A stretch of 41,000 nucleotides of DNA. Source: an uncultured Flavobacteriales bacterium. GTDB lineage: Bacteria > Bacteroidota > Bacteroidia > Flavobacteriales_G > NORP312. Positions 8,722-38,410 of the stretch are shown here, one piece after another. The stretch lies in assembly GCA_905480125.1 (NCBI GenBank), contig CAJQPE010000042.1:1-41000 (forward strand). The letters are read 5' to 3'. The notes beneath the pieces were generated by a model that saw only the letters and a program-made list of their open reading frames with translations, was not told where the DNA came from and did no database searches. Numbering within the stretch: position 1 is the first letter of the stretch; each line of letters begins with the position of its first letter. The translations under genes and the position numbers were made by a program.

Positions 8722-9140
8722 TCAATAATAATTTTTGCCATATCTTTATAAAGCTCATACATATATCCAGCGACCATACCACCAATACCAGTTTCTATTA
8801 TCTGCCACATAAAATCAATAGCAACATGACTCAGCTCATTTCCCTCAGTAAAAGAAATACCCAAAACAAAGGCAACTAAATAAAAGAAAAAACCTAATAC
8901 ACCTCCTAAAAAGCCTCCATTCGCATACTTTTTTGAAGAGAAATTTACTTTAGTTGCCAATACGGTAACAATAAATCCGATACATAGGTAAACAAAAGCT
9001 GCTAAACTATAGTATAACCAAAGTGGATACGTAACTTTATCAATATCATTAAGAAAGACTCCATGCCAAAGAAACGACAACAAAAACATTATCATAGAAG
9101 CTATAAACCATGAACCATAATATCGCTTTCTCCACTTCAT
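8718..9140 (-). CDS. Small four-helix membrane protein, DUF1761-like
   Basis: The 140-residue protein has a basic N-terminus (MKWRKRYYG) and four hydrophobic segments at roughly 10-30, 42-62, 75-95 and 108-130. Features such as the aromatic-Gly pair FLWHG in the first helix, Gly-rich packing in the third, and a short final helix resemble DUF1761-type proteins, but I cannot confirm the family. The function is unknown. The gene is convergent with rarA, overlapping by 4 nt, and divergent from the lipoprotein gene at 9231 across a short intergenic region. Confidence 0.7.
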   Translation of the reverse strand: MKWRKRYYGSWFIASMIMFLLSFLWHGVFLNDIDKVTYPLWLYYSLAAFVYLCIGFIVTVLATKVNFSSKKYANGGFLGGVLGFFFYLVAFVLGISFTEGNELSHVAIDFMWQIIETGIGGMVAGYMYELYKDMAKIIID

Positions 9141-9201
9141 TATTTCAACACAAAACCAAAGAATACATTAGTATTCAGGCAAAAATAAGGCTTTATTTTT
9201 A

Positions 9202-9209
9202 TAGTTTTG
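9202..9209 (+). promoter_or_regulatory. -7 promoter box TAGTTTTG
   Basis: This exact match to the Bacteroidota -7 consensus TAnnTTTG lies 21 nt before the TTG start at 9231 of the following lipoprotein. It overlaps the alternative TTG start at 9207, which argues against that start. No clear -33 TTG is present at the normal distance. Confidence 0.5.
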
Positions 9210-9230
9210 GAACAAAGAATTAAAATTAAA

Positions 9231-10847
9231 TTGTTAGCAAATAAACACATCCCCATTCTCACCTTTCTGTTGTTCTCTCTGAGTATTACTTCTTGCAAAA
9301 AAAGAGACCAAAATCCAAAATGGGATGCAGATGAATTAGTTCCATTAATTAAAACTTCTGTCAATCTTTACGATTTATCTAATTATGATGAACTTAACCC
9401 CGATTCTTCTGGAGCGCTACTTCTTACTTTCAGTAACTCTCTATTTAAGTATAGCTTAGATTCCCTTGTTAGTATACCTGACACTGGGTTATCTGAACGA
9501 ATAGATACATTAATCTTTGTTAGTTTTGCACCAGGTTTTTCTGTTGATCTTGCTCAAAACCAAGAGACTAAACTTAAAATCGGCAATACTGAATTAGTTG
9601 AGGCGATAATAAATTCAGGTAGTATTGATGTTTCAATCGAATCAACATTTAGTGAACCAACTATTGTTAGCTATGAATTATCCTCTGCAACCAAAAATGG
9701 TAGTAAGCTTCTAATTTCTGAATCTATTCCCGCAGGAAGTATATCAGGCCCTTCAGTTGTTTCTGCTTCCTATAATTTATCAAATTATTACCTAGACTTA
9801 AAAGGAGTAAATGGAAATAGCTACAACACAATAGTTGCTCAAATATCGGCGATGGTAGACCCCTTAGGAGACACTTTAGTCAGCCAATTGAATGACTATA
9901 TAGAGATTAGCTACACTTTTAATAATATTCAGCCCAAATATGCCAGAGGTTATTTTGGCAATGATTCATATAGCAACATGGGCGCAGAAGAATTTCATTT
10001 TCTATCAAACTTCACAGGGGGTGATATAGATATCGAATCATTAAATATGAATTTCGAAATAAAAAATGGGGCAGGTGTAGATCTTCAATTAGCTAGTAAT
10101 GATATTTCTATGAGTAATATAGAAACAGGCAGCACAAGTGTTTTAAACAGCACCGCACTTGCTAATTCGCTCAACATTGACCGGGCACAAGAAACTGGAG
10201 TCGCCGCACCACCAGTAATTGCTTCTTCCTACTCTATCGGGCTCGACATCAATAATTCTAATATAGATAAGCTTTTCGAAATTATTCCTAATCAAATTAA
10301 TTATGGTTTCGATTTACAAATAAATCCCTTTGGACATATATCTTCTCATAATGATTTCATATATAAGGACTTTGGCATTGAAGTGCTGCTAGATATGGAA
10401 ATTCCTATGTCAGTTGCCACAAATAAATTTACGCTGAGCGACACTATAGAGTTTGACATTGGAGAAAAAACAATAGACGACCGTTATCTCATTATAGACG
10501 GTTTTATTCACCTGTATGCAGACAACTGGTATCCATTTACTGCTGCTACGCAATTATACCTCCTTGACGAAAGTTATACCATATTTGACTCGATACTTGT
10601 TGAAAATTCAATTATTGAAGCAGGAATACTTGATGATAATAATATTGTTGTTTCCCCTATGCGATCAAAAATTAGTGGGGCAATAAATACATCAAAAATT
10701 GACGCACTATACAATGCAGAATTTATAAAGACCGATTTCACACTTTCAACGCCTGATTACCCAAATTATGTAACGGTTTATGATTATTACAAGATAGATA
10801 TGACACTTGTTGGAGATTTCAATTATGTCATCGATCCCAACAAATGA
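9231..10847 (+). CDS. Large lipoprotein of unknown function
   Basis: Starting at TTG 9231, the protein has a short polar N-region (LANKH), a hydrophobic core and the lipobox ITSC, followed by KKRDQ. An alternative TTG at 9207 would add eight residues but lies in the -7 box. The mature part (about 515 residues) is rich in Ser, Asn, Asp and Ile in alternating patterns that suggest beta-sandwich folds. I recognise no catalytic motif. After the lipid anchor, WDADELVPLIKTSVNLYDL resembles the beginning of other Bacteroidota lipoproteins of unknown function. The stop overlaps the start of the DUF5723-type barrel gene (ATGA), which implies translational coupling. A lipoprotein paired with an outer-membrane barrel suggests an envelope complex. 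Confidence 0.82.
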   Translation: MLANKHIPILTFLLFSLSITSCKKRDQNPKWDADELVPLIKTSVNLYDLSNYDELNPDSSGALLLTFSNSLFKYSLDSLVSIPDTGLSERIDTLIFVSFAPGFSVDLAQNQETKLKIGNTELVEAIINSGSIDVSIESTFSEPTIVSYELSSATKNGSKLLISESIPAGSISGPSVVSASYNLSNYYLDLKGVNGNSYNTIVAQISAMVDPLGDTLVSQLNDYIEISYTFNNIQPKYARGYFGNDSYSNMGAEEFHFLSNFTGGDIDIESLNMNFEIKNGAGVDLQLASNDISMSNIETGSTSVLNSTALANSLNIDRAQETGVAAPPVIASSYSIGLDINNSNIDKLFEIIPNQINYGFDLQINPFGHISSHNDFIYKDFGIEVLLDMEIPMSVATNKFTLSDTIEFDIGEKTIDDRYLIIDGFIHLYADNWYPFTAATQLYLLDESYTIFDSILVENSIIEAGILDDNNIVVSPMRSKISGAINTSKIDALYNAEFIKTDFTLSTPDYPNYVTVYDYYKIDMTLVGDFNYVIDPNK

Positions 10848-12106
10848 GGGTTCTAACTACAATATCAGCAGTAATTTTAGTATTTAATTTAGCACTAGGA
10901 CAAACTGCATTCACACTTCAAATTTATGATTCTGATTCTAGTAAATTTGTGACAGGTGCTTATGGCGAAATTCAATACAATTCGGCAGCCATCACTAACC
11001 TATTTGCAAAAGCATTCTACCAAGGCGAATATCTTACAAAGGAAATAAAAGAAAGTTCTATCAATAAGCTGGGAAATTTTAACCAACTTGGTTTGGATGC
11101 AAACTATGGTGCTTATTCTTCGATTAGGTTAAAAAGTTTCATGGGAAGAAATCCGTATAGACTCAATTGGTTCATGGGCTTATATAATCGAGCACATACT
11201 GACTTGTCTGTTCCTGAAAATTTATTCAGGTTAGTGTTCGAGGGCAACAAACAATTCACTGGCGAATCTATTGATATTAGCGGTTTCGACTTCAAACTAT
11301 TCAATTACCAGCAACTGCATACTGGGTTATACTTTGACAATGGACTTGGTCAAAAAATTGCGATAAGCGCATCATATCTTAATGGTAATAGATACCTCTC
11401 ATACTCAGTACCGCAGCTTAATTTTTTTACCAGTGATATTGGGGATCAAATAGCCATAGATTGGGATTTAACCTATCGACAAGCTAACCTCGAAAATGAA
11501 AGGTATTTACGCTCTAATGGATATGGATTCTCGACTGACTTAATGTATCAATTTAGCTATCATTCTGTTGAGAATTCTAATAATTATATGAAAATTGAGG
11601 TCAATGATTTAGGTTTTATCAACTGGTCATCAAAATCTCAATCTATTACTAGTTCTGATTCTTTATTATATGAAGGTTATTACATTAAAAACATTCAAGA
11701 AATACACGATTCATTAATTCAAGAAGTAAGTGTGGATAGCATTGTCGATTCCCATACCTATCTAAAAACAGATAAATTCACCACTTATCTACCAGCAAGA
11801 ATTTCTCTTGACATAAAGCAACAACATAACGAAAAGTTAGCTATAAATATAGGAATTAGCTATAGAATTAACGCTAACTACACACCATTATTATTTGTTG
11901 AAGAGCAATATAATATTACAAAAAAAATAATTGCATCTGGCAGATTAAGCTATGGGGGCTACACTAAACTTTCTTTTGGAATGAATGTTCGTGCCCAATT
12001 TAAATCAATAGGATTATTTGCAGGAACGAATAACCTTGAAGGCCTTATCCTTTCGAAATATTTTGGTGGATTCAGCGCTTTTGGTGGGATAAATTTTAGA
12101 CTTTAA
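10844..12106 (+). CDS. Outer-membrane beta-barrel protein, DUF5723-like
   Basis: The signal peptide (residues 1-19, ending ALGQ) is followed by a protein of about 400 residues made of amphipathic strands, with a final strand ending in GINFRL, which is compatible with BamA recognition. The pattern of a conserved beginning, a central variable loop (residues about 255-300, Ser- and Asp-rich) and C-terminal repeats of the type SYGGYTKLSFGMNV matches the DUF5723 group of Bacteroidota barrels; this is a recognition by eye. It overlaps the upstream lipoprotein by 4 nt and is followed after 1 nt by a T9SS-sorted protein. The function is unknown. Confidence 0.78.
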   Translation: MRVLTTISAVILVFNLALGQTAFTLQIYDSDSSKFVTGAYGEIQYNSAAITNLFAKAFYQGEYLTKEIKESSINKLGNFNQLGLDANYGAYSSIRLKSFMGRNPYRLNWFMGLYNRAHTDLSVPENLFRLVFEGNKQFTGESIDISGFDFKLFNYQQLHTGLYFDNGLGQKIAISASYLNGNRYLSYSVPQLNFFTSDIGDQIAIDWDLTYRQANLENERYLRSNGYGFSTDLMYQFSYHSVENSNNYMKIEVNDLGFINWSSKSQSITSSDSLLYEGYYIKNIQEIHDSLIQEVSVDSIVDSHTYLKTDKFTTYLPARISLDIKQQHNEKLAINIGISYRINANYTPLLFVEEQYNITKKIIASGRLSYGGYTKLSFGMNVRAQFKSIGLFAGTNNLEGLILSKYFGGFSAFGGINFRL

Positions 12107-12107
12107 A

Positions 12108-13592
12108 ATGAAAACAAAGTTATGCACGCTTTTAATGAGCACTATATTTATTGGAGCATTTAACATATGCGCTCAAGTAAATACGTTTAGACATGTTTTC
12201 GGAGGTGTTGGGGATGATTTCGGCCAGGATATTGAGCAAACTGCAGATGGTGGCTATGTTATTACAGGAGCAACAGGAAGCTTTGGTTACGGTCAATCTG
12301 ATGTATATCTCCTAAAAATTGATTCATTAGGAATTTACGAATGGTCGAAGTCTTATGGTGGATCTAATATTGATTGGGGTTATGATGTAGAAATAACTTC
12401 AGATGGAGGCTATGTTATTGCTGGATACACAAACAGCTTTGGATCTGGCGGTTATGATTTCTATCTTCTTAAAACAGATAGTATCGGAGATACATTATGG
12501 ACAAAAACATATGGTGGCTGGAACTGGGACCGATGTTTTTCTATGGACATTACCTCTGATAATGGATTTGTTCTTGTTGGAGAAACATACAGCTATGGAG
12601 CTGGAGAAACAGATTTCTGGATCGTAAAAACAGACGAATTTGGGGATACACTTTGGACCAAAACTTTTGGCGGCAGCTTAGAGGAAAGAGCTAATTCTAT
12701 ATTTGAAACTTATGATGGCAATCTAATAATATGTGGGAATTCAACAACCTACTCAGATGGAGGTGCAGATGGAATAATTCTAAAAATTGATAATTTAGGT
12801 AACACAGAATGGTTCTCTAATTACGGAGGGCCAGAAAATCAAAATTATAATAGTGTTATTCAATATTATGATACTACTGGTTATATCTGTTTTGGGACTA
12901 ATAACATTAGTTCTACACAGAGCAAAATGTACATGACTAAGTTTGATAATTTTGGCTCATTTGAATGGGATAAACAATATGGTAATGGCACAATTAATAC
13001 TGGGAGTGCCGTTAGTAATAGAGGCAGTGGTTCTATGGTAGTAGCAGGAACAAATGACAACAGCATTAATAGTATTGAAGTCCTTGTAACCAGTCCAACA
13101 GGTGGTTTTTGGGCTAACAATGCAAACATTGGCGGTGCCGATGCAGATGTAGGTAATGATATTATTGTAACATCAGATAATCATTTTGCTATCTTAGGAA
13201 ATACTAAAAGTTTTGGATTCGGCTATTCCGACATATTAGTTTACAAATCATCTAGTTCAATTGAGTCAGACTCATCAAACTACACAGCTCAACAAGACAC
13301 AAATACTGTTAACTATCCTATTCAGTTTAATGGTCATACCGAAAATAATTTAGACAAAAAAATAACCATTTACCCAATACCTAGCTCGAACAGTAAAGTT
13401 AATTTGTCTACAAAAAACATAACAATAATAGATGCTAAGTTATATAACCTTATAGGACAGCTAATTCCAAGTGTTTTACACATTAATAATAATCAAGCAA
13501 CAATAGAAAATCTATCTTTAGTAAAAGGGATATATCTCCTAGAACTTAACTTAGATAACCAAATCGTTTATCAACAAGTTGTTTTCGAGTAA
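12108..13592 (+). CDS. T9SS-sorted repeat protein
   Basis: The signal peptide (1-22, ending ICAQ) is followed by tandem repeats with the pattern DGGYVITGxTxSFGxGxxDxYLLKxDSxGxxxWxKxYGG. Such repeats form beta-propeller-like folds in Bacteroidota secreted proteins; the exact fold is inferred. The C-terminal 75 residues (from ITIYPIPSS) are a type A sorting domain ending in QQVVFE. The protein is therefore expected outside the outer membrane. No enzymatic motif is visible; adhesion or structural roles are most likely. The gene starts 1 nt after the upstream barrel stop and ends in TAATG with the next membrane-protein gene, so all four genes from 9231 to 14965 read as a single transcription unit. 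Confidence 0.88.
   Translation: MKTKLCTLLMSTIFIGAFNICAQVNTFRHVFGGVGDDFGQDIEQTADGGYVITGATGSFGYGQSDVYLLKIDSLGIYEWSKSYGGSNIDWGYDVEITSDGGYVIAGYTNSFGSGGYDFYLLKTDSIGDTLWTKTYGGWNWDRCFSMDITSDNGFVLVGETYSYGAGETDFWIVKTDEFGDTLWTKTFGGSLEERANSIFETYDGNLIICGNSTTYSDGGADGIILKIDNLGNTEWFSNYGGPENQNYNSVIQYYDTTGYICFGTNNISSTQSKMYMTKFDNFGSFEWDKQYGNGTINTGSAVSNRGSGSMVVAGTNDNSINSIEVLVTSPTGGFWANNANIGGADADVGNDIIVTSDNHFAILGNTKSFGFGYSDILVYKSSSSIESDSSNYTAQQDTNTVNYPIQFNGHTENNLDKKITIYPIPSSNSKVNLSTKNITIIDAKLYNLIGQLIPSVLHINNNQATIENLSLVKGIYLLELNLDNQIVYQQVVFE
12240..12863 (+). repeat. Tandem 156-bp (52-codon) coding repeats
   Basis: Four units begin at 12240, 12396, 12552 and 12708, each exactly 156 bp apart. They encode T(A/S)D-GG(Y/F)V...DFYLLKTDSxGDTLWTKTYGG and decay in similarity towards the last unit. 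A further degenerate unit starts near 12864 (YYDTTGYICFG). The constant period with protein-level rather than nucleotide-level conservation points to old duplication inside the gene. Confidence 0.8.
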
Positions 13593-14965
13593 TGAAATTT
13601 CTCATAAGGGCCTCACACTTAATATTCTTAATACTTTTTATTTTATCTCTAATATTCTACGCAGAAAGAGTTGCATTTATTGATTCAGCCTATCATATAT
13701 TTAAGTTAATAAATGCTGAATCTCTAACTTATGAAGCAGGAAGATATGGTGCTTTTCTTACAAAATGGCCAGTAGTTTTATTAGTTAATTTAGGCGCACC
13801 ATTAAAAGTGATATTATTAGTATTTTCAGGCTGGTTTATCCTATGGTATTACCTTATTTTTTTGATTATATCATATGTCCTAAAAAATAAAAAAATAGGA
13901 GTTGCTCTTGCGTTATCTCTAGTTACGGGTTATGGAAGCACGTTTTTCCATTGTGTTACAGAAACCCATCAAGCCTTGGTGTATAGCTTTTTATTTTATG
14001 CCTGGATTTCTTCAACTATAAAACTGAAAACCCTCCTTCGTATTGTTGGTGGACTTCTTTTAATTCTTCTTTCTTTTCTCACCCACCCCATATCACTTAT
14101 AGTCATTCTTACCTTGTTAGGTTTTTATCTTATACAGAATAAAAATTATTCAACATCAACAAGGTATATCTATCCAGTTTTTATAGCAGTTCTGGTTATT
14201 TTAAAGCTCTTATTAACAGAAGGAGAATCATATGAAGGCCATTTTTTTGATCTCAAAGATATCCTATCATCATTCCATGCAAGAATGTTTAATTGGATTT
14301 TCTACTTTAAAAATATTACTTTTTTATACCTTACTTCAACGCTAGCATTGATTTTATTAGCTTTTAACATGTACAAAAGAAAAACATTCGCTCATTTTTA
14401 TACTGTTTTTTCTTCAATTACGCTATTATTCCTTCTTATCCTGTTTTATAAAGGGGGAGCTAGCATAATGAAAGAGAGGGCATTACTTCCATTCTGTTCG
14501 ATTGTTATCTTTTTTCTAGTTGCGGTATTATCAAAAAAGACCCTAGACAAAAGCTATTCTAAAAGCTATTTCATTTTTAGCTCAGTAATTGGCTTAGCAG
14601 CCATTATATCGATGCGAATTGAACACGCCACCATACAAAACAAATACTTGTTTGCGTTTACTAATGAAATATTTAATTCTACAAAAAAGATTATTGTTCC
14701 ACTAAATGAAATTAATGACAATAAAAACACGATAACATGGGCCATTCCTTATGAAACATTGCTCCTTTCTGCTGCCAGCGGGAAAGAAAATTCAAAAACT
14801 ATATACCCTTTACGGGACCAAGAGTTGAATTCTATTAATCTAAATGATAACAATTTAGTACTTGGGGCTCCTTTTTATTTAAAACATAACGCCTCTCTAC
14901 TAAATAAAAACTACTTTATACTTGATCAATCAAGTTACATCAAGCTAAAATCATTTCCCAAATAG
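13592..14965 (+). CDS. Polytopic membrane protein, possibly GT-C-like
   Basis: The 457-residue protein has about ten hydrophobic segments and a soluble C-terminal part of about 90 residues. The first external loop holds an acidic pair in AFIDSAYHIF followed by YEAGRYGAFLTKWPVVL, which recalls the catalytic-loop Asp of GT-C glycosyltransferases, and a second loop has CVTETHQALVY. I do not recognise a named family, so the glycosyltransferase idea is only a hypothesis. The start ATG overlaps the T9SS gene stop (TAATG). The 3' end overlaps the convergent GT4 gene by 15 nt. A membrane-embedded sugar transferase would fit with modification of surface proteins from the same operon. Confidence 0.75.
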   Translation: MKFLIRASHLIFLILFILSLIFYAERVAFIDSAYHIFKLINAESLTYEAGRYGAFLTKWPVVLLVNLGAPLKVILLVFSGWFILWYYLIFLIISYVLKNKKIGVALALSLVTGYGSTFFHCVTETHQALVYSFLFYAWISSTIKLKTLLRIVGGLLLILLSFLTHPISLIVILTLLGFYLIQNKNYSTSTRYIYPVFIAVLVILKLLLTEGESYEGHFFDLKDILSSFHARMFNWIFYFKNITFLYLTSTLALILLAFNMYKRKTFAHFYTVFSSITLLFLLILFYKGGASIMKERALLPFCSIVIFFLVAVLSKKTLDKSYSKSYFIFSSVIGLAAIISMRIEHATIQNKYLFAFTNEIFNSTKKIIVPLNEINDNKNTITWAIPYETLLLSAASGKENSKTIYPLRDQELNSINLNDNNLVLGAPFYLKHNASLLNKNYFILDQSSYIKLKSFPK

Positions 14966-19768: not shown

Positions 19769-21124
19769 ATGAAAAAATTATTCCTAGTATTAGTTTTTAT
19801 ACCATTTTCTGGAATTTCTCAAGACGTTGATTCGTTAATGGTTCGTGAAATTTATGATGAAATACTTACCAACGGCGAATGCTATGAAAATCTTAGAAGC
19901 TTATGTAAAGATGTTGGAGCTCGACTAAGTGGGTCGCCTGAAGCTGCAAAAGCGGTAGGCTGGGGAGAAGCGTTATTAAACTCCTATAAATTTGACAAAG
20001 TTTGGCTGCAAGAAGTTATGGTTCCGCAATGGAAAAGAGGCAAAAAAGAATCCTGCGTATTGATTGGTCAAGATGACGTTCCATTAAATGTATGTGCCTT
20101 AGGAGGGTCGGTAAACACCAATGGAACTATTTCAGCAAAAGTAGTTATGGTAAACAGCTTCGAAGAATTAGATTCTCTTGGTGAGGCAGCAATAAATGGA
20201 AATATTGTATTCTTCAATACACCAATGGATCAAAAACAAATTAGAACTTTTAATGCATATGGAGGGTGCTATCCCTTTCGATCAAAAGGGCCATCCAAAG
20301 CAGCAAAGTATGGGGCTTTAGCTACTGTTTTGCGCTCTCTAAGTACACTAACAGACCATTCCCCTCACACAGGAGTAATGCGATACGAAGCTGGCATTCC
20401 ACAAATACCTGCTGCAGCTATTGGTACCGCAGATGCTGACATTCTTGAAAATGCAATGCTAGACAAACTAGACATTACACTTCAATTAACAATGCATTGT
20501 CAAACTTTACCAGATGTAAAATCATATAACGTAATTGGAGAAATAACTGGGAACGAACACCCCGATAACTACGTTATTGTTGGCGGACATTTAGACTCTT
20601 GGGATATCGGTGAAGGCGCGCATGACGATGGTGCGGGAATTGTTCATTCAATTGAGGCACTTCGAACATTGAAAGCTATAGGTTATAAACCAAAAAACAC
20701 ATTGCGCGTTGTTCTTTTTATGAATGAAGAAAATGGCGCAAAAGGCGCTCAGAAATATGCTGAAGAAGCTAAAGCAAAAAACGAAAAACATATTGCTGCA
20801 ATTGAAAGCGACAGAGGTGGATTTACACCACGAGGATTCAGTATTTCTGGCACAGAAAAACAATTTAAACAATTGGAAGAATGGGAAAAGATATTAATGC
20901 ATTACGACCTAGAATATATCGTTAAAGGGTTTGCAGGAGTTGATATTGCCCCATTAAAAAATGGAAAAACCGCCTTAATTGGTTTTGCTCCCGATTCTCA
21001 GCGTTATTTTGATCTGCATCATTCAGAAAATGATGTTTTTGAAATGGTTCATGAAAGAGAGTTAAAACTTGGTGCAGCTTCTATTACCGCGCTAATTTAT
21101 TTGATTGACAAGTACGGAATATAA
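19769..21124 (+). CDS. Exported M28-family zinc metallopeptidase
   Basis: The start is placed at 19769 (MKKLFLVLVFIPFSG), because it gives a clean signal peptide ending GISQ; the upstream in-frame ATG at 19733 would put 12 residues ahead of it. The mature protein has a PA-like insert (about 115-230) and the M28 catalytic core. Zinc and catalytic residues appear in GGHLDSWDIG, GAHDDGAG, FMNEENG (Glu pair), ESDRGG and the final LHHSENDVFE. It resembles Bacteroidota carboxypeptidase Q-like enzymes, which remove single residues or dipeptides in the periplasm or outside. It carries no T9SS sorting domain and may therefore be periplasmic. Confidence 0.92.
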   Translation: MKKLFLVLVFIPFSGISQDVDSLMVREIYDEILTNGECYENLRSLCKDVGARLSGSPEAAKAVGWGEALLNSYKFDKVWLQEVMVPQWKRGKKESCVLIGQDDVPLNVCALGGSVNTNGTISAKVVMVNSFEELDSLGEAAINGNIVFFNTPMDQKQIRTFNAYGGCYPFRSKGPSKAAKYGALATVLRSLSTLTDHSPHTGVMRYEAGIPQIPAAAIGTADADILENAMLDKLDITLQLTMHCQTLPDVKSYNVIGEITGNEHPDNYVIVGGHLDSWDIGEGAHDDGAGIVHSIEALRTLKAIGYKPKNTLRVVLFMNEENGAKGAQKYAEEAKAKNEKHIAAIESDRGGFTPRGFSISGTEKQFKQLEEWEKILMHYDLEYIVKGFAGVDIAPLKNGKTALIGFAPDSQRYFDLHHSENDVFEMVHERELKLGAASITALIYLIDKYGI

Positions 21125-21156
21125 AAATCAAATTAGAATTAGCTGTTTATTTAAAA

Positions 21157-21185
21157 TTGCAAGACTAACATAAAAATAAATTTTG
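21157..21185 (+). promoter_or_regulatory. Possible promoter of the giant T9SS gene cluster
   Basis: TTG (21157-21159) and AAATTTTG (21178-21185) are separated by 18 nt. The second element differs from TAnnTTTG at one position. It lies 35 nt before the ATG at 21221 and is the only good candidate in the 96-nt gap. Confidence 0.35.
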
Positions 21186-21220
21186 TAATTTTACATTCCT
21201 AATATTACACTCCCCTTATT

Positions 21221-24200
21221 ATGATTATTAAAAAATTCGCATCTTTACTTACCTTTTCTTTAATTGCTCTATTAACTTGTGTTGGTCAAACCGTAATTTA
21301 CTCTACCGATTTTGGAACTGACGGACTTTTTCCAACAGGTTATACTAATTCATCACAAATACAAATTTCCCAAGTTGGTCCAAGTTCTGGTTATACTGGT
21401 GCCTCCGGAGGTGATTATGTCAATTGTCTAAATAACGTAGGCGCACTTCAAACCCTCACAGTTAACCCCCCTATATCAACTGTAGGTTTCGAAAATATTA
21501 ATGTTATATGGGGAGCAAGACAAAATGACGCTCCTGCAATACAGCTGGAATGGAGTACAGATGGTTTTGTGACTCCATTTGCAGTTACATATACAGAAGT
21601 TGCTAATAATGATACTTGGGATTTTGTTAATGGCGGAACGGCTGTTAACCTTCCTGCAGGTGCAAATGGAGCTGCAAATCTTCAATTTAGATTTTCGTAT
21701 ACTGGATCACTAGACGCTTTACACTATTACAAAATAGATGATTTTACTGTTGAAGGTACTTGCATAGAGCCTACCACACAGCCTTCCTCATTAGCTGCAT
21801 CAATTATTGGTGATGATGCTGCATTATTGAGTTGGGACATCGGGAATGGTGCAAGTCGTTTAATTGCTATTCATGAGGCAACTGCTGTCACAGCGACTCC
21901 AGCAGATAATACTACTTATAACGCAGATAATATCTTTGGCAGTGGTGATGAGTTAGTCCTAGGCAACTTTGAGTATGTTATTTACAATGACCAAGGCACA
22001 TCAGCTACTGTTACTGGGTTAAGTTTGGGAACAGTATACGATTACACAATATTCGAATATAATTGCGATGCAGGTTCGGAAGATTATTTAACTGTTGCAC
22101 CGCCTAATTTTTCATTTACAACTTGTGATGGAAGCTCTCCTGCAGTCGAAGCTTCAACCGATGTTACATCCAACATTGCAGTTTCTAGCTTTCAACTAGA
22201 TTGGACTATTGGAGATGGTGAACGTCGAATCGTTGTAGTTAAGGCAGGTAGCGCTGTTGATGTAAGCCCTACTGATAACACTGTTTATACTGCTGATGCA
22301 GATTTTACATTGGGCCAAGACATCGGTTCTGATAATATTGTTGTATTTAATGGAACAGGAAATTCAGTCACCATAACTGGACTTACAGTAGGTACAGAAT
22401 ACCATTTTAAAGTATTTGAATATAATTGCGAGGGGGACCCAAAGTACCTCACTACTGCCCCATTAACCGGCTCGCAAAGTACTGCCGGTGTATTCTATTC
22501 ACACTCAACAACAGATCTAGATAATGTTATTAACTGGTGGTCAAATAGAGATGGTACAGGCACAAATCCAGCCAATTTCACGGACGACGATAAACAATAT
22601 ATAATTGAAGATGACGGCAGTTCAACAGGAGCCGCATGGACTGTATCTGGTGCAAATAGTAAAGTTATTATTGAAACGGGAATAGGATTCACAGTTACAA
22701 ACGGGAATACCGTAACAGCATCAATAGAATTAGAAGGAACGGGAGCAATTACAATAGATGATGGTACAAACCCCACGCTGGCTGTAATATCGAGTACTAG
22801 CACTGTAACTTACTCCACAAATGCAGCATCCATAGAAACTACGACATATGGTAATTTAGTTATTGATAAAGCACTTTCGCTAAGTGGAGACATTGCAGTT
22901 TCAGGTGCCCTTACATTAAATGATGTTCTTACACTTAATGGTAATATCCTAACATTAGATGGTACTATTGCTGGTGCTAGTACAATCTCTGGCTCAAACG
23001 CTAGTGATATTATTATTGGCGGAACGGGTGCCCTTGGCACTATCGAATTTACAACTGGCAACGAATTATTAGAAAACCTAACAATAAACAGAACAACATC
23101 TGGCACAGTTACACTTGGAAGTGATTTAACGATAGGTGGGGCCACTAGCGGTACTGGAGTGTTAACTTTAACTGATGGATCTCTAGATTTAAATGGCAAT
23201 ACTCTATCCTTTTCAAATTCATCTACCTCCATTGCAGCTGGAACAATTACTGGCTCTAATACTGCTAATATTATAATTAATGGAGCTGGCACTTTCGGAG
23301 ATGGATTAGCAATGGATCAAACTTCAGCAATTACAAAGACTCTTATGACCTTAGATTTTGACAGAGCTGGCCAAGATATTGTTCTTGCTTCTGATTTAAC
23401 TATATCGAATAGTATGATTGGCCGCGACGGTTCATGCTCAATAGGAGCAAATACTTTGTTACTTGAAGGTGATTATACTTCAGTAAGTGGTGATCTTAAA
23501 GGTACAACCTCATCTAACCTTACTATTAATGGGCTTAATCCCATAACTAGCGCTATTGTTTTTGATCTGGGAGAAAATGATTTGGGAACTTTAACAATGA
23601 ATAGGGCTAACGAAACTTTAACACTTGGAACTGATTTAAATATTGCTACAGCACTAGTAATTTCGGCTGGTACCGTATCAAATGGAGGAAATATCATTGA
23701 TGGTAGCACTGGCGCTGCTTTAAATTTAACTGCTGGATCTAACCTAACTTTAGCCGGAACAACAACATTTCCAACATTTACTTCTGAAACCATTGATAGA
23801 ACTTCTACTGTAGAGTATGCTGGTGGAGTACAATCTGTTGCAGTAAAAGATTATGGTCATATCAAATTCTCTGCAGCAGACGTAAAATCGCTAGCAGGCC
23901 CAGGGGGAAGCTTAGCGGGTGAAATGTCTATTACAGGGGGTACATTTAACATGGGGAATCACGCCTTTACGTTTAAATCAGACGCAACCGGAACTGCTCA
24001 ATTACTAGAAATAACATCAGCGGATAATCCAGCATTATTGAACGCAGGAAATGTAACTGTCGAGCGCTATGTTGAGGGGGCTATTGGTTTTAGAATTTTT
24101 AGTCCACCTGGAACGGGGGCAACAATTGCCGATTACAATAATGAAATGGCAATGTCTGGCCCTACTCTTGTTGGCTCCAATGATGACAGCCCAGGTTCAT

Positions 24201-26389
24201 GGCCATCAACATATATGTACAATCAAGGGACACTCACTGGATCTGATCTTGATGCTGATTCTGGTTGGTACAACCCTACCAATGTTTCTCAAACAATGCA
24301 ACATACATCGAATGTAGTTGCAACTTCTGCATCTGCTACTGCTGGAATTGCTACATACCTTACAACGATAACAAGCGCAAGTACCCCAATGCCTTTAACT
24401 ACAGATGTTACTGTAAGCCTAGATAACTCTCAAGGCACCTTTGTATTAAATAATTTAAGCTTCGGCGGCGGTGGAGCTGGTGCACCTATAGCTGGATACC
24501 ATTTAATCGGAAACCCTTACCCCTGCAGTCTAGATTGGAATGAAGTGGTAGCTAACGGAATGACCAATGTAGATGCTTCAAATTCGATATATATTGTTGA
24601 GGGGGCAACTAATAATTTTACCCCATCAACTACTGCTATTCTTGCATCTGGCGAAGGTGGTTTCATAAAAGTATCGAATGGTACAAATCAAATAACTATT
24701 GAAGAAAACGATAAGTTAGGAACGGGTATTGCGGATCCATTTAATAAGACTAACAATAATGGGCTACCCGGATTAGAACTTGTTATAAACGTTGGAACCC
24801 ACTATGACCAGGCCCAAATTGAGTTTAAACAAGGTATGAATGATCTTTATGAACATGAATTTGATGCATTGAAAATGGACAACTTTTCTGGAAAAACAAA
24901 TATAGCCGTTGTTTCAAGTGATAACAAAGACCTCCACTGGAATTATATAGATGACAATGCCAACTCAACTATTCCAATAAAAGTGTATAGAAATTCTAAT
25001 ACTGGCATTGTAGAATCTTACACGTTAGAATTAAACAATGTAGACGAATTAATTCAAAATAACAAGTGTATTAGTTTTGAAGATATAGAGACAGGGATTA
25101 GTTTTCCACTTACAGGTGATACAACTTATACATTTACAATGAATGATACTGTTACCCAGGCAAGACTATTCATTACTATTAACTCTCCTTTAACAACCAA
25201 CCAGACCAATCTAACATGCGAAGGAACAAATGATGGAACCGCATCGGTATTTGGAACTGGACCCGTTGTTCAATATACATGGACAGATCAAGCAGGAAAT
25301 ACTATACCGGTGTTTGGTGGTAACTTAAATAATTTAGCTGCTGGTTATTATTATGTTGAAGTTACTGGCCTTATTGGAAGTTGTTCTGTTGCCAATGCAG
25401 CATTTGAAATAACTGAACCAGCAATGTTACTCGTAAATTCTGAAATTGAAAATGTAATCTGTAATGGTCAAAATACTGGAAGTATTGAATTAACAGCTAC
25501 TGGTGGCGAAGGAACCTCCTACTCTTACAATTGGAGTAATGGATCGAATGGTGCTACTCTTTCTAATTTAAGTGCAGGTAATTACACCGTAAGTGTTGTT
25601 GACAATGAAGGTTGTGAAACAATCGAAAACATAGCTATTACTGAAAATGAATTAATCTCTTTAACTAATTCATCTAATGATGCTACTTGCTTTGGATTAG
25701 ATGATGGTTACATTGATCTAGAAGTAATAACGAGTGGCTCTTTTATATTCGACTATTTGTGGAGCAATGGCGAAACCACGCAAGATATTAGCAATTTATC
25801 AGCAGGGCAATATGATGTAACGGTAACTAATGAAAATGGTTGTGCCTCAATATCTTCTATGTTAATTGATGAGCCTATAGAAATTAATGTTCTTTTCGAA
25901 GCAAGTACTGACACAATTAATTTAGATCAAGGGGCAGTAATCGCTTTCACAAACTTATCAACTGGAACTAATATCTATAACTGGAACTTTGGTGATGGAG
26001 GTACTTCGACAGATATGTCTCCATGGTACGAGTTTTCTTCAATTGGCACTTACATTGTAACCTTAGATGCTAGCAATGGTGGATGTGATGGGGCATTTAG
26101 CTCAAACATCGTGGTAAATAACGTGAGCAATATACCTGCTATCACTAATGAAAATGAAATGAAATTCATTGAAGTTAGTGGTCAACTTTATGCTTATAGT
26201 CAATCGTTAGCAAATGATCAATTCCAAATTTCGATATACAATAGTATCGGCCAATTAGTTAGTTTTTCAGTAGGTATTGCAGATGAAAACAAAATTGAAC
26301 TCGTTTTACCAAAGTCTAAAGGTGTTTATCTAATTAAGTTAGCATCTACAGAGCAAGAATTTATAAAAAAATACATTGTTGCTAATTAA
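21221..26389 (+). CDS. Giant T9SS surface protein with Fn3-like, SprB and PKD domains
   Basis: The 1722-residue protein has a signal peptide (about 1-23, ending CVGQ) and an N-terminal jelly-roll-like domain (about 25-180). Two fibronectin-III-like repeats follow (about 180-420, each ending VTGLxxGTxYxxxxFEYNC). A long Thr/Ser/Gly-rich beta region (about 420-950) repeats TLNGNxLTLDG and IIIGGTGxLGTIEF patterns. GYHLIGNPYPCSLDW marks a common Bacteroidota module near 1100. Three SprB repeats (about 1328-1553, each with W-x-NG-x-LSAGxYxVxVT) are followed by a PKD domain with YNWNFGDGG and a type A-like sorting domain (about 1643-1722). It should be a T9SS-exported adhesin or gliding-type surface protein. 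The PID-CTERM gene starts 26 nt downstream. Confidence 0.9.
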   Translation: MIIKKFASLLTFSLIALLTCVGQTVIYSTDFGTDGLFPTGYTNSSQIQISQVGPSSGYTGASGGDYVNCLNNVGALQTLTVNPPISTVGFENINVIWGARQNDAPAIQLEWSTDGFVTPFAVTYTEVANNDTWDFVNGGTAVNLPAGANGAANLQFRFSYTGSLDALHYYKIDDFTVEGTCIEPTTQPSSLAASIIGDDAALLSWDIGNGASRLIAIHEATAVTATPADNTTYNADNIFGSGDELVLGNFEYVIYNDQGTSATVTGLSLGTVYDYTIFEYNCDAGSEDYLTVAPPNFSFTTCDGSSPAVEASTDVTSNIAVSSFQLDWTIGDGERRIVVVKAGSAVDVSPTDNTVYTADADFTLGQDIGSDNIVVFNGTGNSVTITGLTVGTEYHFKVFEYNCEGDPKYLTTAPLTGSQSTAGVFYSHSTTDLDNVINWWSNRDGTGTNPANFTDDDKQYIIEDDGSSTGAAWTVSGANSKVIIETGIGFTVTNGNTVTASIELEGTGAITIDDGTNPTLAVISSTSTVTYSTNAASIETTTYGNLVIDKALSLSGDIAVSGALTLNDVLTLNGNILTLDGTIAGASTISGSNASDIIIGGTGALGTIEFTTGNELLENLTINRTTSGTVTLGSDLTIGGATSGTGVLTLTDGSLDLNGNTLSFSNSSTSIAAGTITGSNTANIIINGAGTFGDGLAMDQTSAITKTLMTLDFDRAGQDIVLASDLTISNSMIGRDGSCSIGANTLLLEGDYTSVSGDLKGTTSSNLTINGLNPITSAIVFDLGENDLGTLTMNRANETLTLGTDLNIATALVISAGTVSNGGNIIDGSTGAALNLTAGSNLTLAGTTTFPTFTSETIDRTSTVEYAGGVQSVAVKDYGHIKFSAADVKSLAGPGGSLAGEMSITGGTFNMGNHAFTFKSDATGTAQLLEITSADNPALLNAGNVTVERYVEGAIGFRIFSPPGTGATIADYNNEMAMSGPTLVGSNDDSPGSWPSTYMYNQGTLTGSDLDADSGWYNPTNVSQTMQHTSNVVATSASATAGIATYLTTITSASTPMPLTTDVTVSLDNSQGTFVLNNLSFGGGGAGAPIAGYHLIGNPYPCSLDWNEVVANGMTNVDASNSIYIVEGATNNFTPSTTAILASGEGGFIKVSNGTNQITIEENDKLGTGIADPFNKTNNNGLPGLELVINVGTHYDQAQIEFKQGMNDLYEHEFDALKMDNFSGKTNIAVVSSDNKDLHWNYIDDNANSTIPIKVYRNSNTGIVESYTLELNNVDELIQNNKCISFEDIETGISFPLTGDTTYTFTMNDTVTQARLFITINSPLTTNQTNLTCEGTNDGTASVFGTGPVVQYTWTDQAGNTIPVFGGNLNNLAAGYYYVEVTGLIGSCSVANAAFEITEPAMLLVNSEIENVICNGQNTGSIELTATGGEGTSYSYNWSNGSNGATLSNLSAGNYTVSVVDNEGCETIENIAITENELISLTNSSNDATCFGLDDGYIDLEVITSGSFIFDYLWSNGETTQDISNLSAGQYDVTVTNENGCASISSMLIDEPIEINVLFEASTDTINLDQGAVIAFTNLSTGTNIYNWNFGDGGTSTDMSPWYEFSSIGTYIVTLDASNGGCDGAFSSNIVVNNVSNIPAITNENEMKFIEVSGQLYAYSQSLANDQFQISIYNSIGQLVSFSVGIADENKIELVLPKSKGVYLIKLASTEQEFIKKYIVAN

Positions 26390-26415
26390 TATTTTATTAA
26401 TAGCTTTGCCTCCCA

Positions 26416-26652
26416 ATGAAAAGAGTCAATTCTTTTAATTCCAGAGTATTAAAAGTACTTCCAGTACTTTCAGCGCTTATTTTTCTTTCACTAGATAGTA
26501 TGTGCCTAACGTTAGCTCCAGGTGGAGGCCCACCTTGTGGTGGAGTATTTGGAGATTGCATTCCTATTGATGGAGGGGTTTCGTTTCTATTAGCAGCAGG
26601 AGCTGCATATGGTGGAAAAAAAGCTTACGACACTTGGAAAGAAAATTCATAA
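26416..26652 (+). CDS. PID-CTERM sorting-domain mini-protein
   Basis: The 78-residue protein has a signal peptide-like N-terminus (basic MKRVNSFNSRVLK, then a hydrophobic core to about residue 28). A short Gly/Pro/Cys-rich stretch follows (cysteines 30, 41 and 48). The PID-CTERM motif CIPIDGG lies at 48-54, with a hydrophobic helix (about 55-67) and a basic tail GGKKAYDTWKENS. This is the tripartite layout of exosortase substrates. Only about 20 residues remain between the two sorting signals. The exosortase gene starts 17 nt downstream, so this is probably its cognate substrate. I see no other PID-type tail in the window. Confidence 0.85.
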   Translation: MKRVNSFNSRVLKVLPVLSALIFLSLDSMCLTLAPGGGPPCGGVFGDCIPIDGGVSFLLAAGAAYGGKKAYDTWKENS

Positions 26653-26669
26653 CGCATTTTTAAAACTAA

Positions 26670-27203
26670 ATGCTTGAAAAAATTCGAACATTAGTTACAA
26701 ACCCACTGATTTTATTTTTTCTTAAGTCTTCTTTTTTATTTTTATTATGGATAATTGTATACGACTTTTGGATCAATCCAGCTCAAACATTTGATTTATT
26801 TGTAATTGATCAATTATTAACACAGGGGCGTTTTATTCTGGAACTATTAGGATATGAGCTTATTCCTGATGCAGTATATGACACTGATTATCGCACCCTT
26901 GGTTTAGACGGAACGCATGGTGTTTGGGTGGGCGACCCATGTAATGGCATCACTATTTTTGCGTTATTTGTCGGGTTTATAGTTGCATATCCCGGCAAAC
27001 TTTTACAGAAACTATGGTTTATACCCTTTGGTATAATAACCATTCACCTATTAAACGTTATTAGAATTGCCGCTTTATGTATAATACTTTTAGAGGCCCC
27101 AGACAAATTGGAATTTAACCATACATATGTATTTACTACTATAATTTATTCCTATATCTTTTTACTGTGGTACTGGTGGGCTAATAAACTGAGTAATGCA
27201 TAA
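26670..27203 (+). CDS. xrtX: Exosortase family protein, XrtX-like
   Basis: The 177-residue membrane protein has about five hydrophobic segments and the exosortase catalytic set. Cys91 is in WVGDPCNGITIFALFVGF, Arg132 in LLNVIRIAAL and His151 in FNHTYVF. Exosortases cleave CTERM tails at the inner membrane and pass the mature protein on for anchoring or export. The sequence fits the small Bacteroidota-specific branch (XrtF/XrtX); the choice of XrtX rests on memory of the GDPCNG text and on the neighbour. It overlaps the next gene by 8 nt and lies 17 nt after the PID-CTERM gene, giving a compact substrate-enzyme-partner cassette. Confidence 0.88.
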   Translation: MLEKIRTLVTNPLILFFLKSSFLFLLWIIVYDFWINPAQTFDLFVIDQLLTQGRFILELLGYELIPDAVYDTDYRTLGLDGTHGVWVGDPCNGITIFALFVGFIVAYPGKLLQKLWFIPFGIITIHLLNVIRIAALCIILLEAPDKLEFNHTYVFTTIIYSYIFLLWYWWANKLSNA

Positions 27204-27684
27204 ATCCAGATCAAAATTAAATTATGCACTAATCTGTATTATTTCGCTATTTATAATAGGATCTGGGTTCTTAAGAGATTCTATTTTTAGAACTATTAAT
27301 TGGCAAATTACAGCTTTCAAAACGGACAATCCCGCATTAGTAAGGTCTTCTTTCTATAATAAACTATTTCTCCAATTTAGCACGAATGAACTATATGCTG
27401 CTAAATGGATATTGACAATCATTTTTTCTATTTTATTTTTTGTATACACGCTTATTGGAACTCGATTAATATACCAAACGAAACACTATACAAAAATAAT
27501 TGCTATTTTATTCATTTCCGTATTTATTTTGTCTGCTCTAGCTTATGGTATTGGATATTTTACTGACAATTTATCCCAAGGCTATCACTTTGCACGAATA
27601 TTTATGGGTGCAGTACAAAGTCCATTTATTCTTCTGATTCTAATTCCTGCAATTAAACTATCTAAGCTTCAAAACTCTATATAA
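27196..27684 (+). CDS. Exosortase-associated membrane protein
   Basis: The 162-residue protein has a basic N-terminus and about four transmembrane segments (about 10-26, 72-92, 102-122 and 135-155). A conserved-looking periplasmic part lies between the first two, containing NWQITAFKTDNPALVRSSFYNK. Small proteins of this form accompany XrtX/XrtF exosortases in Bacteroidota and carry the name of exosortase-associated membrane proteins. The biochemical role is not known. It overlaps the exosortase gene by 8 nt and overlaps the convergent HTTM gene by 8 nt at its 3' end. Confidence 0.78.
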   Translation: MHKSRSKLNYALICIISLFIIGSGFLRDSIFRTINWQITAFKTDNPALVRSSFYNKLFLQFSTNELYAAKWILTIIFSILFFVYTLIGTRLIYQTKHYTKIIAILFISVFILSALAYGIGYFTDNLSQGYHFARIFMGAVQSPFILLILIPAIKLSKLQNSI

Positions 27685-28597
27685 ACTTAGGAAAAATTAC
27701 TCGGATTCTTTTTGCGGTGCAGTTGTCGATAAACAACAAATAGGAAGCAAGCATTATCAAACCAAAATCAACCAAACCATTTAATACTATAATTCCTACA
27801 TGCATTCCTGCACCAACTAACAACAACCATTTTTTTAAGGGCTTTATCCAAATTAATATCGCAAATGTCAACTGATAACCCAATGCTAAATAGTTACTGA
27901 AATACAATGCCAGGTCAGATTTAAACAGTTGATTTACTAGTGTCTGCTGACTAAAAAATGCAAAGTTCAACGTATAGTAAAATGCTTCACCTTCAAACCA
28001 CTCATTACCTATTAATTTGCTAATACCTGCAACGATGTATAGAATACAAATTTGAAGTTGTGCCATTAAAAAGGAAGTATTTGTAACAAGATTATTTGGA
28101 TAACTAAATATTTGATTGAAAATTGGTTGTTTATTTTCTGACATAAAAACGAAATATATTAACAATAACGAAGTTAATGTTGCGCTTCCATTGGTAATGT
28201 ATTCTCCTTTATTAAATAGATTTTCTGCAAAAAAGTAAACCAATACGCTCATAACTCTTACCAAAGGTTGTAAGCTACCTAAAACAATTGTTAAGAAAAG
28301 ACCGCCTATAAACCACAAGTAATAATCTTGAAACTGCTCTGTAAAAAGCAGCCGCACTGCCCAACCAAACCAATCGGGTACCTGCTCATTGCCATAACGC
28401 AACGATTCTGGTCCGAAAAAATACTTCAAACGAGGAAGAAGCATTAAGAAGTAGATAAAAATTGTTAGGTATACGCCCCTGCGCGCCAACCAAATTCTAT
28501 CTGAATTATCTTTTTCAGTAAACTCAGTAGCTAAACAATCAACTCTTTCTAGAAACCTATTCAATATCGACAATGGGGTACAAATTATCAAGTTCAA
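27677..28597 (-). CDS. HTTM-domain membrane protein (gamma-carboxylase-like)
   Basis: The 306-residue polytopic protein reads like the HTTM family, which shares its core with vitamin K-dependent gamma-glutamyl carboxylase. The text YIVAGISKLIGNEWFEGEAFYYTL matches the signature helix with a conserved Lys and a Trp-x-x-Gly pair. About eight hydrophobic segments follow. The natural function in bacteria is unresolved. The ATG at 28597 lies 41 nt inside the DUF5819-like gene; an in-frame TTG at 28564 would reduce the overlap to 8 nt and is an equally plausible start. Proteins of this kind are often paired with DUF5819-type partners, as here. Confidence 0.85.
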   Translation of the reverse strand: MNLIICTPLSILNRFLERVDCLATEFTEKDNSDRIWLARRGVYLTIFIYFLMLLPRLKYFFGPESLRYGNEQVPDWFGWAVRLLFTEQFQDYYLWFIGGLFLTIVLGSLQPLVRVMSVLVYFFAENLFNKGEYITNGSATLTSLLLIYFVFMSENKQPIFNQIFSYPNNLVTNTSFLMAQLQICILYIVAGISKLIGNEWFEGEAFYYTLNFAFFSQQTLVNQLFKSDLALYFSNYLALGYQLTFAILIWIKPLKKWLLLVGAGMHVGIIVLNGLVDFGLIMLASYLLFIDNCTAKRIRVIFPKFI

Positions 28598-29171
28598 TTT
28601 TTCGCGCTAAATATCTATCCTTCATAGGGTTAAATAACACATTAACAGTTGCAAAACGCAAAGCAATTATATTTTGATTTGGATAATCAATCTCTGACCA
28701 TTGTTGGAAATATTGAACAGCATTTTTATTTGCCCAGGTCGTTTTTAAAATTTCTGGATAATCCTCATGACTTTCATACTTGACTTTATCTTCATAAAGT
28801 AATCTTAAGCTCATGTCGTGTATAACATATCTGTGACCATCAATTCCAAAACGATTTGCTTGATGTTTCGCAATCAATGGTCGAGCTGGATCTCTCCAAT
28901 CAGACCAAGTTTTATCTTCAAATTGAACTTTATAATACATGTAAAGATCCTTCATTGGTGGTTCAGGAGCAAACAACTTCCAGTCTTGATGAAACCATGG
29001 CAACATATAAGCCCCTACATATCTATTAAAAATAGCTGGCGTAAATCGAGCTTCCGTTACATATACAATCGTAGCAAATAAATGCCAGAAAAAAACCGTC
29101 AAAACAGTTAACAATATGAACCTTTTATAGACTTTCAAACCTTTGAAAATTGATCTAAACAAATTAACCAA
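28557..29171 (-). CDS. DUF5819-like membrane-anchored protein
   Basis: The 204-residue protein has one N-terminal transmembrane helix (about 18-38) and a soluble domain outside the membrane. The text YMLPWFHQDWKLFAPEPPMKDLYMYYKV, here quoted only in part as FHQDWKLFAPEPP, is the family hallmark. The conserved Trp-Leu-Phe-Ala-Pro pattern and following W-x-D-W-R-D fit DUF5819. The gene precedes and overlaps the HTTM gene, which suggests a two-protein complex with coupled translation. No catalytic motif is visible. It is divergent from glyA. Confidence 0.8.
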   Translation of the reverse strand: MVNLFRSIFKGLKVYKRFILLTVLTVFFWHLFATIVYVTEARFTPAIFNRYVGAYMLPWFHQDWKLFAPEPPMKDLYMYYKVQFEDKTWSDWRDPARPLIAKHQANRFGIDGHRYVIHDMSLRLLYEDKVKYESHEDYPEILKTTWANKNAVQYFQQWSEIDYPNQNIIALRFATVNVLFNPMKDRYLARKIELDNLYPIVDIE

Positions 29172-29198
29172 AAAAACTGCTATCCTATCTATTATTTC

Positions 29199-29206
29199 TA
29201 ATTTTG
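29199..29206 (+). promoter_or_regulatory. -7 promoter box TAATTTTG of glyA
   Basis: This exact TAnnTTTG match lies 19 nt before the glyA start codon, in the 54-nt divergent gap. No -33 TTG is seen at the usual distance. Confidence 0.6.
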
Positions 29207-29225
29207 CAAAACCAAATCAGATAAA

Positions 29226-30521
29226 ATGGAAACAGACCAGCAAATATTTGACTTAATTGATGATGAATTTGACAGACAAGTTGAAGGAATAGAACTTATC
29301 GCTTCAGAAAATTATGTAAGTGATCAAGTAATGGAAGCCATGGGCTCCGTATTAACTAATAAATATGCTGAAGGACTGCCTGGAAAAAGGTATTATGGAG
29401 GTTGCCAAATTGTCGACCAGGTTGAGCGACTAGCTATCGATAGATTAAAGACCTTATTTAATGCACAATGGGCGAATGTTCAACCGCACTCGGGAGCTAA
29501 TGCGAATGGGGCGGTTATGTTAGGTTTACTTAACCCAGGTGATACTATTTTAGGTTTCGACTTATCGCATGGGGGGCATTTAACTCACGGCTCTCCAGTT
29601 AACTTCTCAGGAAAAACATACAAGGCAACGTTTTATGGTGTTAACAAAACAACTGAACAAGTAGATTATGATGCAATGGAAGCTACAGCCAAAGCTGAAA
29701 AGCCTAAATTAATAATTGCAGGTGCATCCTCTTATTCTAGAGATTGGAATTATGCGAGAATGAGAGAAATAGCGGACGGTATAGGAGCTTTACTAATGGC
29801 TGATATTTCTCACCCTGCGGGCTTAATTTCTAGAGGATTATTAAATGACCCTATGCCTCATTGCCATGTTATTACATCTACAACTCACAAGACTCTTAGA
29901 GGACCTAGAGGTGGGGTAATTATGATGGGTAAAGACTTCGAGAATCCAATGGGTCTTAAAACAATGAAAGGAGCCACTAAAACAATGTCGCAAGTTCTAG
30001 ACGGGGCCGTTTTTCCTGGCACACAAGGTGGGCCACTAGAACATATTATTGCTGCAAAAGCTATTGCTTTTCGTGAAGCATTAACTGACCCCTATATGGA
30101 CTATTGCGTTCAAGTAATGAAAAACGCGAAACTTATGGCTGAATGTTTTGTTGGCAAAGGCTATCATGTTATTTCTGGAGGGACCGATAATCATTCTATG
30201 TTAATTGATTTACGCTCTAAAAACATCACAGGTAAGCTAGCCGAAAACACATTAGGAAAGGCTGATATAACAGTTAATAAAAACATGGTGCCTTTTGATG
30301 ATAAATCACCATTTGTAACTTCTGGCATCCGTATTGGAACTCCTGCTATAACAAGCAGAGGCCTAACAGAAGAGCACATTCCGCAAATTGTAGAGTACAT
30401 TGACGACATTTTAACTTCACCAGAAGACGAAATAAAAATTGCTGCAGCTAAGACTTCAATAAACGAATGGATGGAAAACTACCCCTTATTTTCTCAACAA
30501 AACACAAAAACGCATGCTTAA
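29226..30521 (+). CDS. glyA: Serine hydroxymethyltransferase
   Basis: The 431-residue PLP enzyme interconverts serine and glycine with tetrahydrofolate as one-carbon carrier. Visible hallmarks are [37 protein letters not shown], the ANANGAV substrate loop, DISHPAGLI and the PLP-lysine motif [14 protein letters not shown] (Lys near residue 222). The C-terminal section with [13 protein letters not shown] is complete. It is a cytoplasmic homodimer or tetramer that feeds folate metabolism. Its end overlaps the fahA start by 8 nt, so the two are translationally coupled. The -7 box upstream supports the chosen ATG. Confidence 0.97.
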
Positions 30522-37741: not shown

Positions 37742-38410
37742 ATGAGAAATATATTTATTAGCATAAGCGTAATTTTTATTAACACGGTTTTTGCATTTTC
37801 GCAAAATATTTGTGACTCGATAGAATTTTTTTCAGACACTATATATGTCAATCAATCAACTGACGACTCTATACGGATAAAATTTGATTTCGACTGGGCA
37901 ACGGGTTCTGCAGTAGCATATCCGAGTTATTCAATTTCCCTTAATGATACTTCAAATATCATTTTTGATCAAATTTTCATTGGAACTTTTCTTGGACAAC
38001 AAGATTCTATAGACTTTGAAATAAATTATAAGAATCTAAATATTCCACCTAACTATTTTGTTAATGGCACTTTCGACATTTTTGATCCAAATAGTTCACC
38101 TACTTTAATTTGTCAATTTCCGCTTATTATTATTTTTAAAACGCAAGTTTTTGTTTTAAATAATGAGCATAAAACTGATTTTAAAATTTCACCTAACCCT
38201 TTTAAGAATTCGTTTCGATTTCAATGTAATACTGTAAATATTAAAGAATTTTATATTATTGATTTATTCGGGAATTTGTTAATTGATCTTCCACCAATTT
38301 GTAATCAAAAAATAAATATGGATAATTTTAAAAATGGAACATATGTACTCGTCGCAAAAGATGAATTTGGTCAAATTATTATTGCGGAAAAATTAATAAA
38401 ATGTCAATAA
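37742..38410 (+). CDS. Small T9SS-sorted protein
   Basis: The 222-residue protein has a signal peptide (about 1-21, ending AFSQ). A beta-rich middle (about 22-135) without a recognised family follows. A type A sorting domain from about 143 (FKISPNPFKNSFRF, then FYIIDLFGNLL and NGTYVLVAKDE) completes it. It should be exported by T9SS. Nearly two fifths of the mature protein is the sorting domain. It stands alone between two minus-strand genes. Codon use is more AT-rich than in the neighbours. Confidence 0.8.
   Translation: MRNIFISISVIFINTVFAFSQNICDSIEFFSDTIYVNQSTDDSIRIKFDFDWATGSAVAYPSYSISLNDTSNIIFDQIFIGTFLGQQDSIDFEINYKNLNIPPNYFVNGTFDIFDPNSSPTLICQFPLIIIFKTQVFVLNNEHKTDFKISPNPFKNSFRFQCNTVNIKEFYIIDLFGNLLIDLPPICNQKINMDNFKNGTYVLVAKDEFGQIIIAEKLIKCQ

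Follow-up and report, generated by a model that had tools for sequence, protein, structure and literature searches.

The window analysed here, a stretch of 41,000 nucleotides from a Flavobacteriales genome (G000; 2.63 Mb, assembly about 83% complete), encodes an exosortase X (XrtX)/PID-CTERM system that appears to serve one dedicated target. This system probably delivers a short peptide with a cysteine pair to the cell envelope or the exopolysaccharide layer, where the peptide would act together with a T9SS-secreted partner in adhesion or biofilm formation.

At the core of the locus are three open reading frames on the plus strand, which the original prediction had correctly recognized as a cassette: a PID-CTERM mini-protein (26416..26652, 78 aa), an exosortase (26670..27203, 177 aa) and an associated membrane protein (27196..27684, 162 aa). 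Its account of the spacing was also accurate, with a 17-nt gap between the PID gene and the exosortase gene and an 8-nt overlap between the exosortase gene and that of the partner. The mini-protein scored 45.3 bits against the NCBIfam model PID_CTERM (NF046080, curated cut-off 26 bits; residues 50-72 of 78), and the exosortase reached 181.2 bits against exosortase X (NF046081, cut-off 170), as compared with 93 bits against the XrtF model. We relied on NCBIfam because the Pfam EpsH model (PF09721) misses XrtX in this genome; the window exosortase scored 18.8 bits with a gathering cut-off of 25.7. The proposed catalytic residues Cys91, Arg132 and His151 proved invariant in 16 aligned XrtX proteins, homologues with 44-64% identity to that of the window.

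The third protein is best regarded as a divergent homologue of the XrtX-associated family (NF046082) and not as a formal member, since its 57.3 bits fall below the cut-off of 75. Three of its relatives stay below this value as well (45.5, 62.2 and 65.8 bits), and an alignment of the homologues revealed conserved residues. The gene adjoins XrtX in 67 of 80 XrtX loci and lies directly downstream of it in the window. A promoter and terminator scan of positions 20900-29400 gave no more matches than shuffled sequences did. The cassette is not a chance arrangement, because the trio is found again in dozens of genomes. NCBI has already catalogued it: NCBIfam contains a family for each of the three proteins.

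How many targets does XrtX have? The original prediction had proposed a count of PID-CTERM tails, and a profile search of the whole genome returned a single match above the cut-off, with 46.1 bits as against 13.6 bits for the runner-up, although a second copy could be missing because the assembly is only about 83% complete. We extended the count to 42 genomes of the window's order and 247 genomes of its class. In the order, all 27 genomes with XrtX above the cut-off have a PID match (weak in G001 and G002), and the 7 genomes without any exosortase match, among them one of the window's own genus (G006), are all devoid of PID. Across the class, 105 of the 106 PID genomes possess an exosortase (Fisher p = 4e-33), whereby genome counts overstate independence because the surveyed genomes are related. 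Among the 73 genomes with a strong XrtX (the other genomes numbering 174), PID exceeded the threshold in 64, occurred exactly once in 54 and lay within 1.5 kb of XrtX in 58. The remaining nine had no PID match by profile. The notion that such genomes have no target was rejected: four of the nine were fetched, and each has a PID gene, divergent in its tail, next to XrtX.

A set of 80 XrtX loci from named genomes, several of them on contigs already covered by the survey of the order, gave a corresponding picture. The PID gene, and with it the motif in orthologous neighbourhoods, is kept in 77 loci by profile and in one more (L169) by eye, and 75 of these genes are adjacent to XrtX on the same strand. 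Given these counts and the existing NCBIfam families, the layout of one substrate beside its enzyme is general and already catalogued. The original prediction had set it against the scattered and numerous substrates of other bacteria. It is not peculiar to this genome, however, and exosortase X shows it as a rule across the whole class. That is, the exosortase, its candidate substrate and the partner stood up to analysis, the supposed peculiarity did not, and the unit turned out to be larger than three genes.

Some loci deviate from the common layout. In two relatives, at L078 (G020, 9097-9756) and L077 (G027), the PID gene is inverted and lies beyond the associated gene, and the XrtX frame of G020 is interrupted by a stop. 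G094 and G204 (L200-L207) have four to five PID matches each, mostly unlinked to XrtX, in what looks like an expanded multi-target version; their small PID matches all lack cysteines, and their XrtX scores are the highest found (249 bits). We also considered whether PID tails sort large proteins elsewhere. The sole large candidate was L198 (G204:C1, 1615-4536), a membrane protein of 973 aa whose tail is PID-like. It was set aside because of its weak VIT-domain match and its resemblance to targets of exosortase N, to which it presumably belongs.

The mini-protein itself consists of a signal peptide, a Gly/Pro-rich stretch, the cysteines Cys41 and Cys48, the PIDGG motif (residues 50-54; 26563..26577, plus strand), a transmembrane helix and a basic end. 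All 78 XrtX-linked mini-proteins that we analysed share this build, each with a PID-like motif and with the cysteine pair just before it (78/78). In 59 of the 78 the spacing is C-x4-C-x1-PID (consensus CWPPPC-[IV]-PIDGG), and the window protein has the rarer form C-x6-C-x1-PID (PPCGGVFGDCIPIDGG). In seven PID mini-proteins from XrtF-type genomes no cysteine pair precedes the motif. The stretch from signal peptide to PID measures 18-38 residues in the XrtX-linked proteins, as estimated with an approximate rule whose values are often too high. Judged from sequence, whatever XrtX releases or attaches would be a short peptide and not a protein domain. In the hinge of IgG, proline-spaced cysteine pairs join two chains. 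The cysteines of the mini-protein, likewise spaced by prolines, resemble this hinge, a similarity that we offer as an idea only. A reading of the mini-protein as a lipoprotein with Cys30 as its lipidated residue was discarded, as the closest relative does not share Cys30 and there is no good lipobox.

Since it is very short, is always encoded beside the enzyme and has only one copy in most genomes with XrtX, the mini-protein might also be a permanent small membrane subunit of an XrtX complex, with the PID tail as its second helix, and not a substrate at all. Yet it has the three-part sorting tail of exosortase targets (motif, helix and basic end), and in other exosortase genomes the PID gene is unlinked or multi-copy, as would be expected of targets. 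We therefore consider a structural role very unlikely and favour that of a substrate. The mini-protein would be exported by Sec and lose its signal peptide, while its C-terminal helix and basic end anchor it in the inner membrane. XrtX, probably assisted by the associated membrane protein, would then cut with Cys91, Arg132 and His151 in the PID|GG region; the position of the cut is predicted. The new C-terminus might be passed to an acceptor, as is thought for exosortases, or be set free. Either way, the expected product is a Gly/Pro-rich peptide of about 20-30 residues with the cysteine pair right before the cut, which would be lodged in the cell envelope or the exopolysaccharide layer.

Beyond the cassette, the conserved neighbourhood takes in an upstream gene for a T9SS cargo protein and, downstream, a convergent gene pair. 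The cargo gene (21221..26389, plus strand) is separated from the PID gene by 26 nt and is probably the first gene of the operon. Its product, a secreted protein of 1722 aa, contains SprB repeats and a PKD domain and carries a C-terminal T9SS sorting tail of type A. A same-strand gene of at least 200 aa lies directly upstream in 38 of the 80 loci, and 37 of the 39 upstream genes scanned (those of the 38 loci and of the window) carry the T9SS type A tail. Such an upstream gene is not obligatory, as about half of the XrtX loci lack one. The window's genome contains about 110 T9SS type A tails versus one PID tail. Further tails of this type are found in the window at 2012-2224, 13368-13583 and 38186-38401; the region 12108-14962 encodes a 494-aa protein, whose T9SS tail is weak, and directly after it a 457-aa protein without a Pfam match.

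In the wider neighbourhood, a divergent Wzc-type exopolysaccharide kinase gene is located upstream in 45/80 loci, in line with the classical link between exosortases and exopolysaccharide, and glyA is located downstream in 44/80. These flanking genes indicate that the XrtX locus is largely inherited vertically. No Wzc-like gene was found beside the cassette in the window. The mature peptide and the T9SS-secreted product of the upstream gene probably act together when cells adhere to surfaces or form biofilms. In F. johnsoniae, loss of XrtF or of its partner reduces biofilm formation and surface colonization (PMC10936215); we propose the biofilm role on the basis of these deletion data and of the PEP-CTERM work summarized in PMC12188702.

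Downstream, two genes on the minus strand converge on the cassette. The first encodes an SdpB-like/HTTM membrane protein of 306 aa with a vitamin-K-carboxylase fold (27677..28597; TIGR04033, 54.4 bits, E 1.4e-14). With a curated cut-off of 178.4 bits, this score makes it, by sequence comparison, a remote relative only of SdpB. The second encodes a membrane-anchored DUF5819 protein in an SdpA-like position (28557..29171; PF19136, 39.7 bits, gathering cut-off 27.1 bits) that contains a conserved FAP[ED]PP motif. The SdpB-like gene stands tail-to-tail with the cassette, its 3' end overlapping that of the associated gene by 8 nt; the same orientation occurs in 12 of the 80 loci, and in 3 of the 80 the gene follows just after glyA. 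All 20 genomes of the class with a Pfam match to DUF5819 are strong XrtX genomes. A more sensitive DUF5819 profile detected 32 genomes, namely 30 of the 73 with strong XrtX versus 2 of the 174 others (p = 2.5e-16). The link is weaker at the level of families (11/25 versus 1/40, p = 5e-5). In 11 genomes no more than 8 kb separate the DUF5819-like gene from XrtX, and in the distant cases whose flanks were fetched (L188, L191, L192 and L196), the two genes of the pair stay together. The pair is not obligatory, because most XrtX genomes lack it, nor is its tie to XrtX absolute, since a 99%-complete genome without XrtX and PID encodes the pair (G024:C10:82968-84361).

Could the pair and the upstream T9SS gene simply be passengers of a stable gene order beside glyA, with no functional tie to XrtX? 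The glyA neighbourhood is kept in 44/80 loci regardless of the pair, and the pair of G024 exists without XrtX. Against this, the co-occurrence holds where the pair is distant or on another contig (for example in G066, G105, G173, G196 and G204), Pfam DUF5819 coincides with XrtX in 20 of 20 genomes, the pair occupies two different positions relative to glyA, and a T9SS gene also precedes the PID-XrtF pair of G011. We consider such passenger status rather unlikely and favour a functional connection, in which the DUF5819/SdpB-like pair would make or modify a product of the XrtX pathway in a subset of lineages, including that of the window.

The profile of the SdpB-like protein matches vitamin K gamma-carboxylase (GGCX) in the PDB (E 1e-7), and its AlphaFold model (pLDDT 86) was matched by Foldseek to GGCX structures with a probability of 1.00 and to nothing else of note. 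Lys194 is invariant in the SdpB-like proteins and aligns with Lys218 of GGCX, which we take to be the catalytic base; the PDB contains a GGCX entry with K217A/K218A. The match ends at GGCX residue 329, and the protein lacks the C-terminal half of GGCX with its propeptide and Glu-substrate sites (306 versus about 758 aa). For the DUF5819 model, no fold match was found in the PDB. We rejected the idea that the SdpB-like protein gamma-carboxylates the mini-peptide: in the window, the stretch that separates the signal peptide from PID contains no Glu, so gamma-carboxylation, if present, would have another target.

In Bacillus, the processing of SdpC that yields the SDP toxin depends on both SdpA and SdpB (PMC6818787). 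By analogy, the mini-protein could be the precursor of a secreted, cysteine-linked toxin or signal peptide that XrtX frees from its membrane tail and that the SdpB-like/DUF5819 pair completes, as SdpA/SdpB do for SDP. A mature part of only about 20-30 residues fits this scheme, as does the co-occurrence of the pair with XrtX, often in adjacent positions. However, the CWPPPC core is nearly invariant across the class, whereas bacteriocins vary, and the locus mostly keeps its chromosomal neighbours (glyA and the Wzc-like gene), whereas bacteriocins move. In addition, no immunity gene was seen, and the pair is missing from most XrtX genomes. A secreted toxin or signal is thus quite unlikely in our view. 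An envelope-bound peptide could still pass through two enzymes: XrtX would trim the mini-protein to the 20-30-residue peptide with the cysteine pair, and the SdpB-like/DUF5819 pair would modify or finish either this peptide or its T9SS partner. We hold this extension to be fairly improbable. If true, it would mean that Bacteroidota make a surface peptide which depends on an exosortase and is modified after translation.

Within the literature searched, we found no report of PID-CTERM cleavage and no paper using the term PID-CTERM; the term DUF5819 likewise appeared in no paper in an open-access search. The cysteine pair, the T9SS neighbour and the link to the carboxylase-like pair may for this reason be unreported, an open-access search being no proof. 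A single, tiny and adjacent target offers the simplest setting for learning how an exosortase acts on a protein C-terminus. Furthermore, specific partners are suggested by the cysteine pair, by the gene for the T9SS cargo and by the carboxylase-like pair, and the conserved neighbours provide new, testable hints on the fate of the target.

Compared with known systems, the window cassette is closest to the exosortase X/PID-CTERM/associated protein system of NCBIfam, with the same three genes in the same order and with enzyme and tail above the cut-offs. It differs in the associated protein (57 versus 75 bits) and in the cysteine spacing C-x6-C-x1-PID, which is rarer than CWPPPC. With the PEP-CTERM/EpsH exosortases it shares the signal peptide, the tail of motif, helix and basic end, the catalytic Cys/Arg/His and the link to exopolysaccharide genes, but it has one small target instead of many, and the EpsH model is not reached. 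The Bacillus SdpA/SdpB system likewise combines a multi-pass HTTM protein with a neighbouring single-helix protein; the window's protein scores far below the SdpB cut-off, and no SdpC-like gene was found beside the pair. In fold and invariant lysine, the SdpB-like protein matches GGCX.

The XrtF system (TIGR04128 and TIGR04127; Fjoh_1448/1449 in F. johnsoniae) also resembles the window in its related enzyme with an adjacent partner. The two are told apart by the model scores of the window enzyme (181 bits for XrtX, 93 for XrtF) and by the cysteine pair, which the PID mini-proteins of XrtF-type genomes lack (n=7). An intermediate enzyme occurs in L208 (G171, 4759-5555), where a 59-aa PID mini-protein without Cys lies directly upstream of an exosortase that scores almost equally for XrtF (107 bits) and XrtX (106 bits). 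A 2025 paper described the targets of XrtF as unknown (PMC12188702). In G011, whose second cassette, elsewhere in the genome, is of the XrtX type, the XrtF locus L093 (G011:C19:175000-193000, 8429-13315) encodes a T9SS cargo protein, a 57-aa PID mini-protein, XrtF and the XrtF-associated protein, in the same order as in the window. The same logic thus gives XrtF a candidate target, namely the PID mini-protein, in those lineages that have one.
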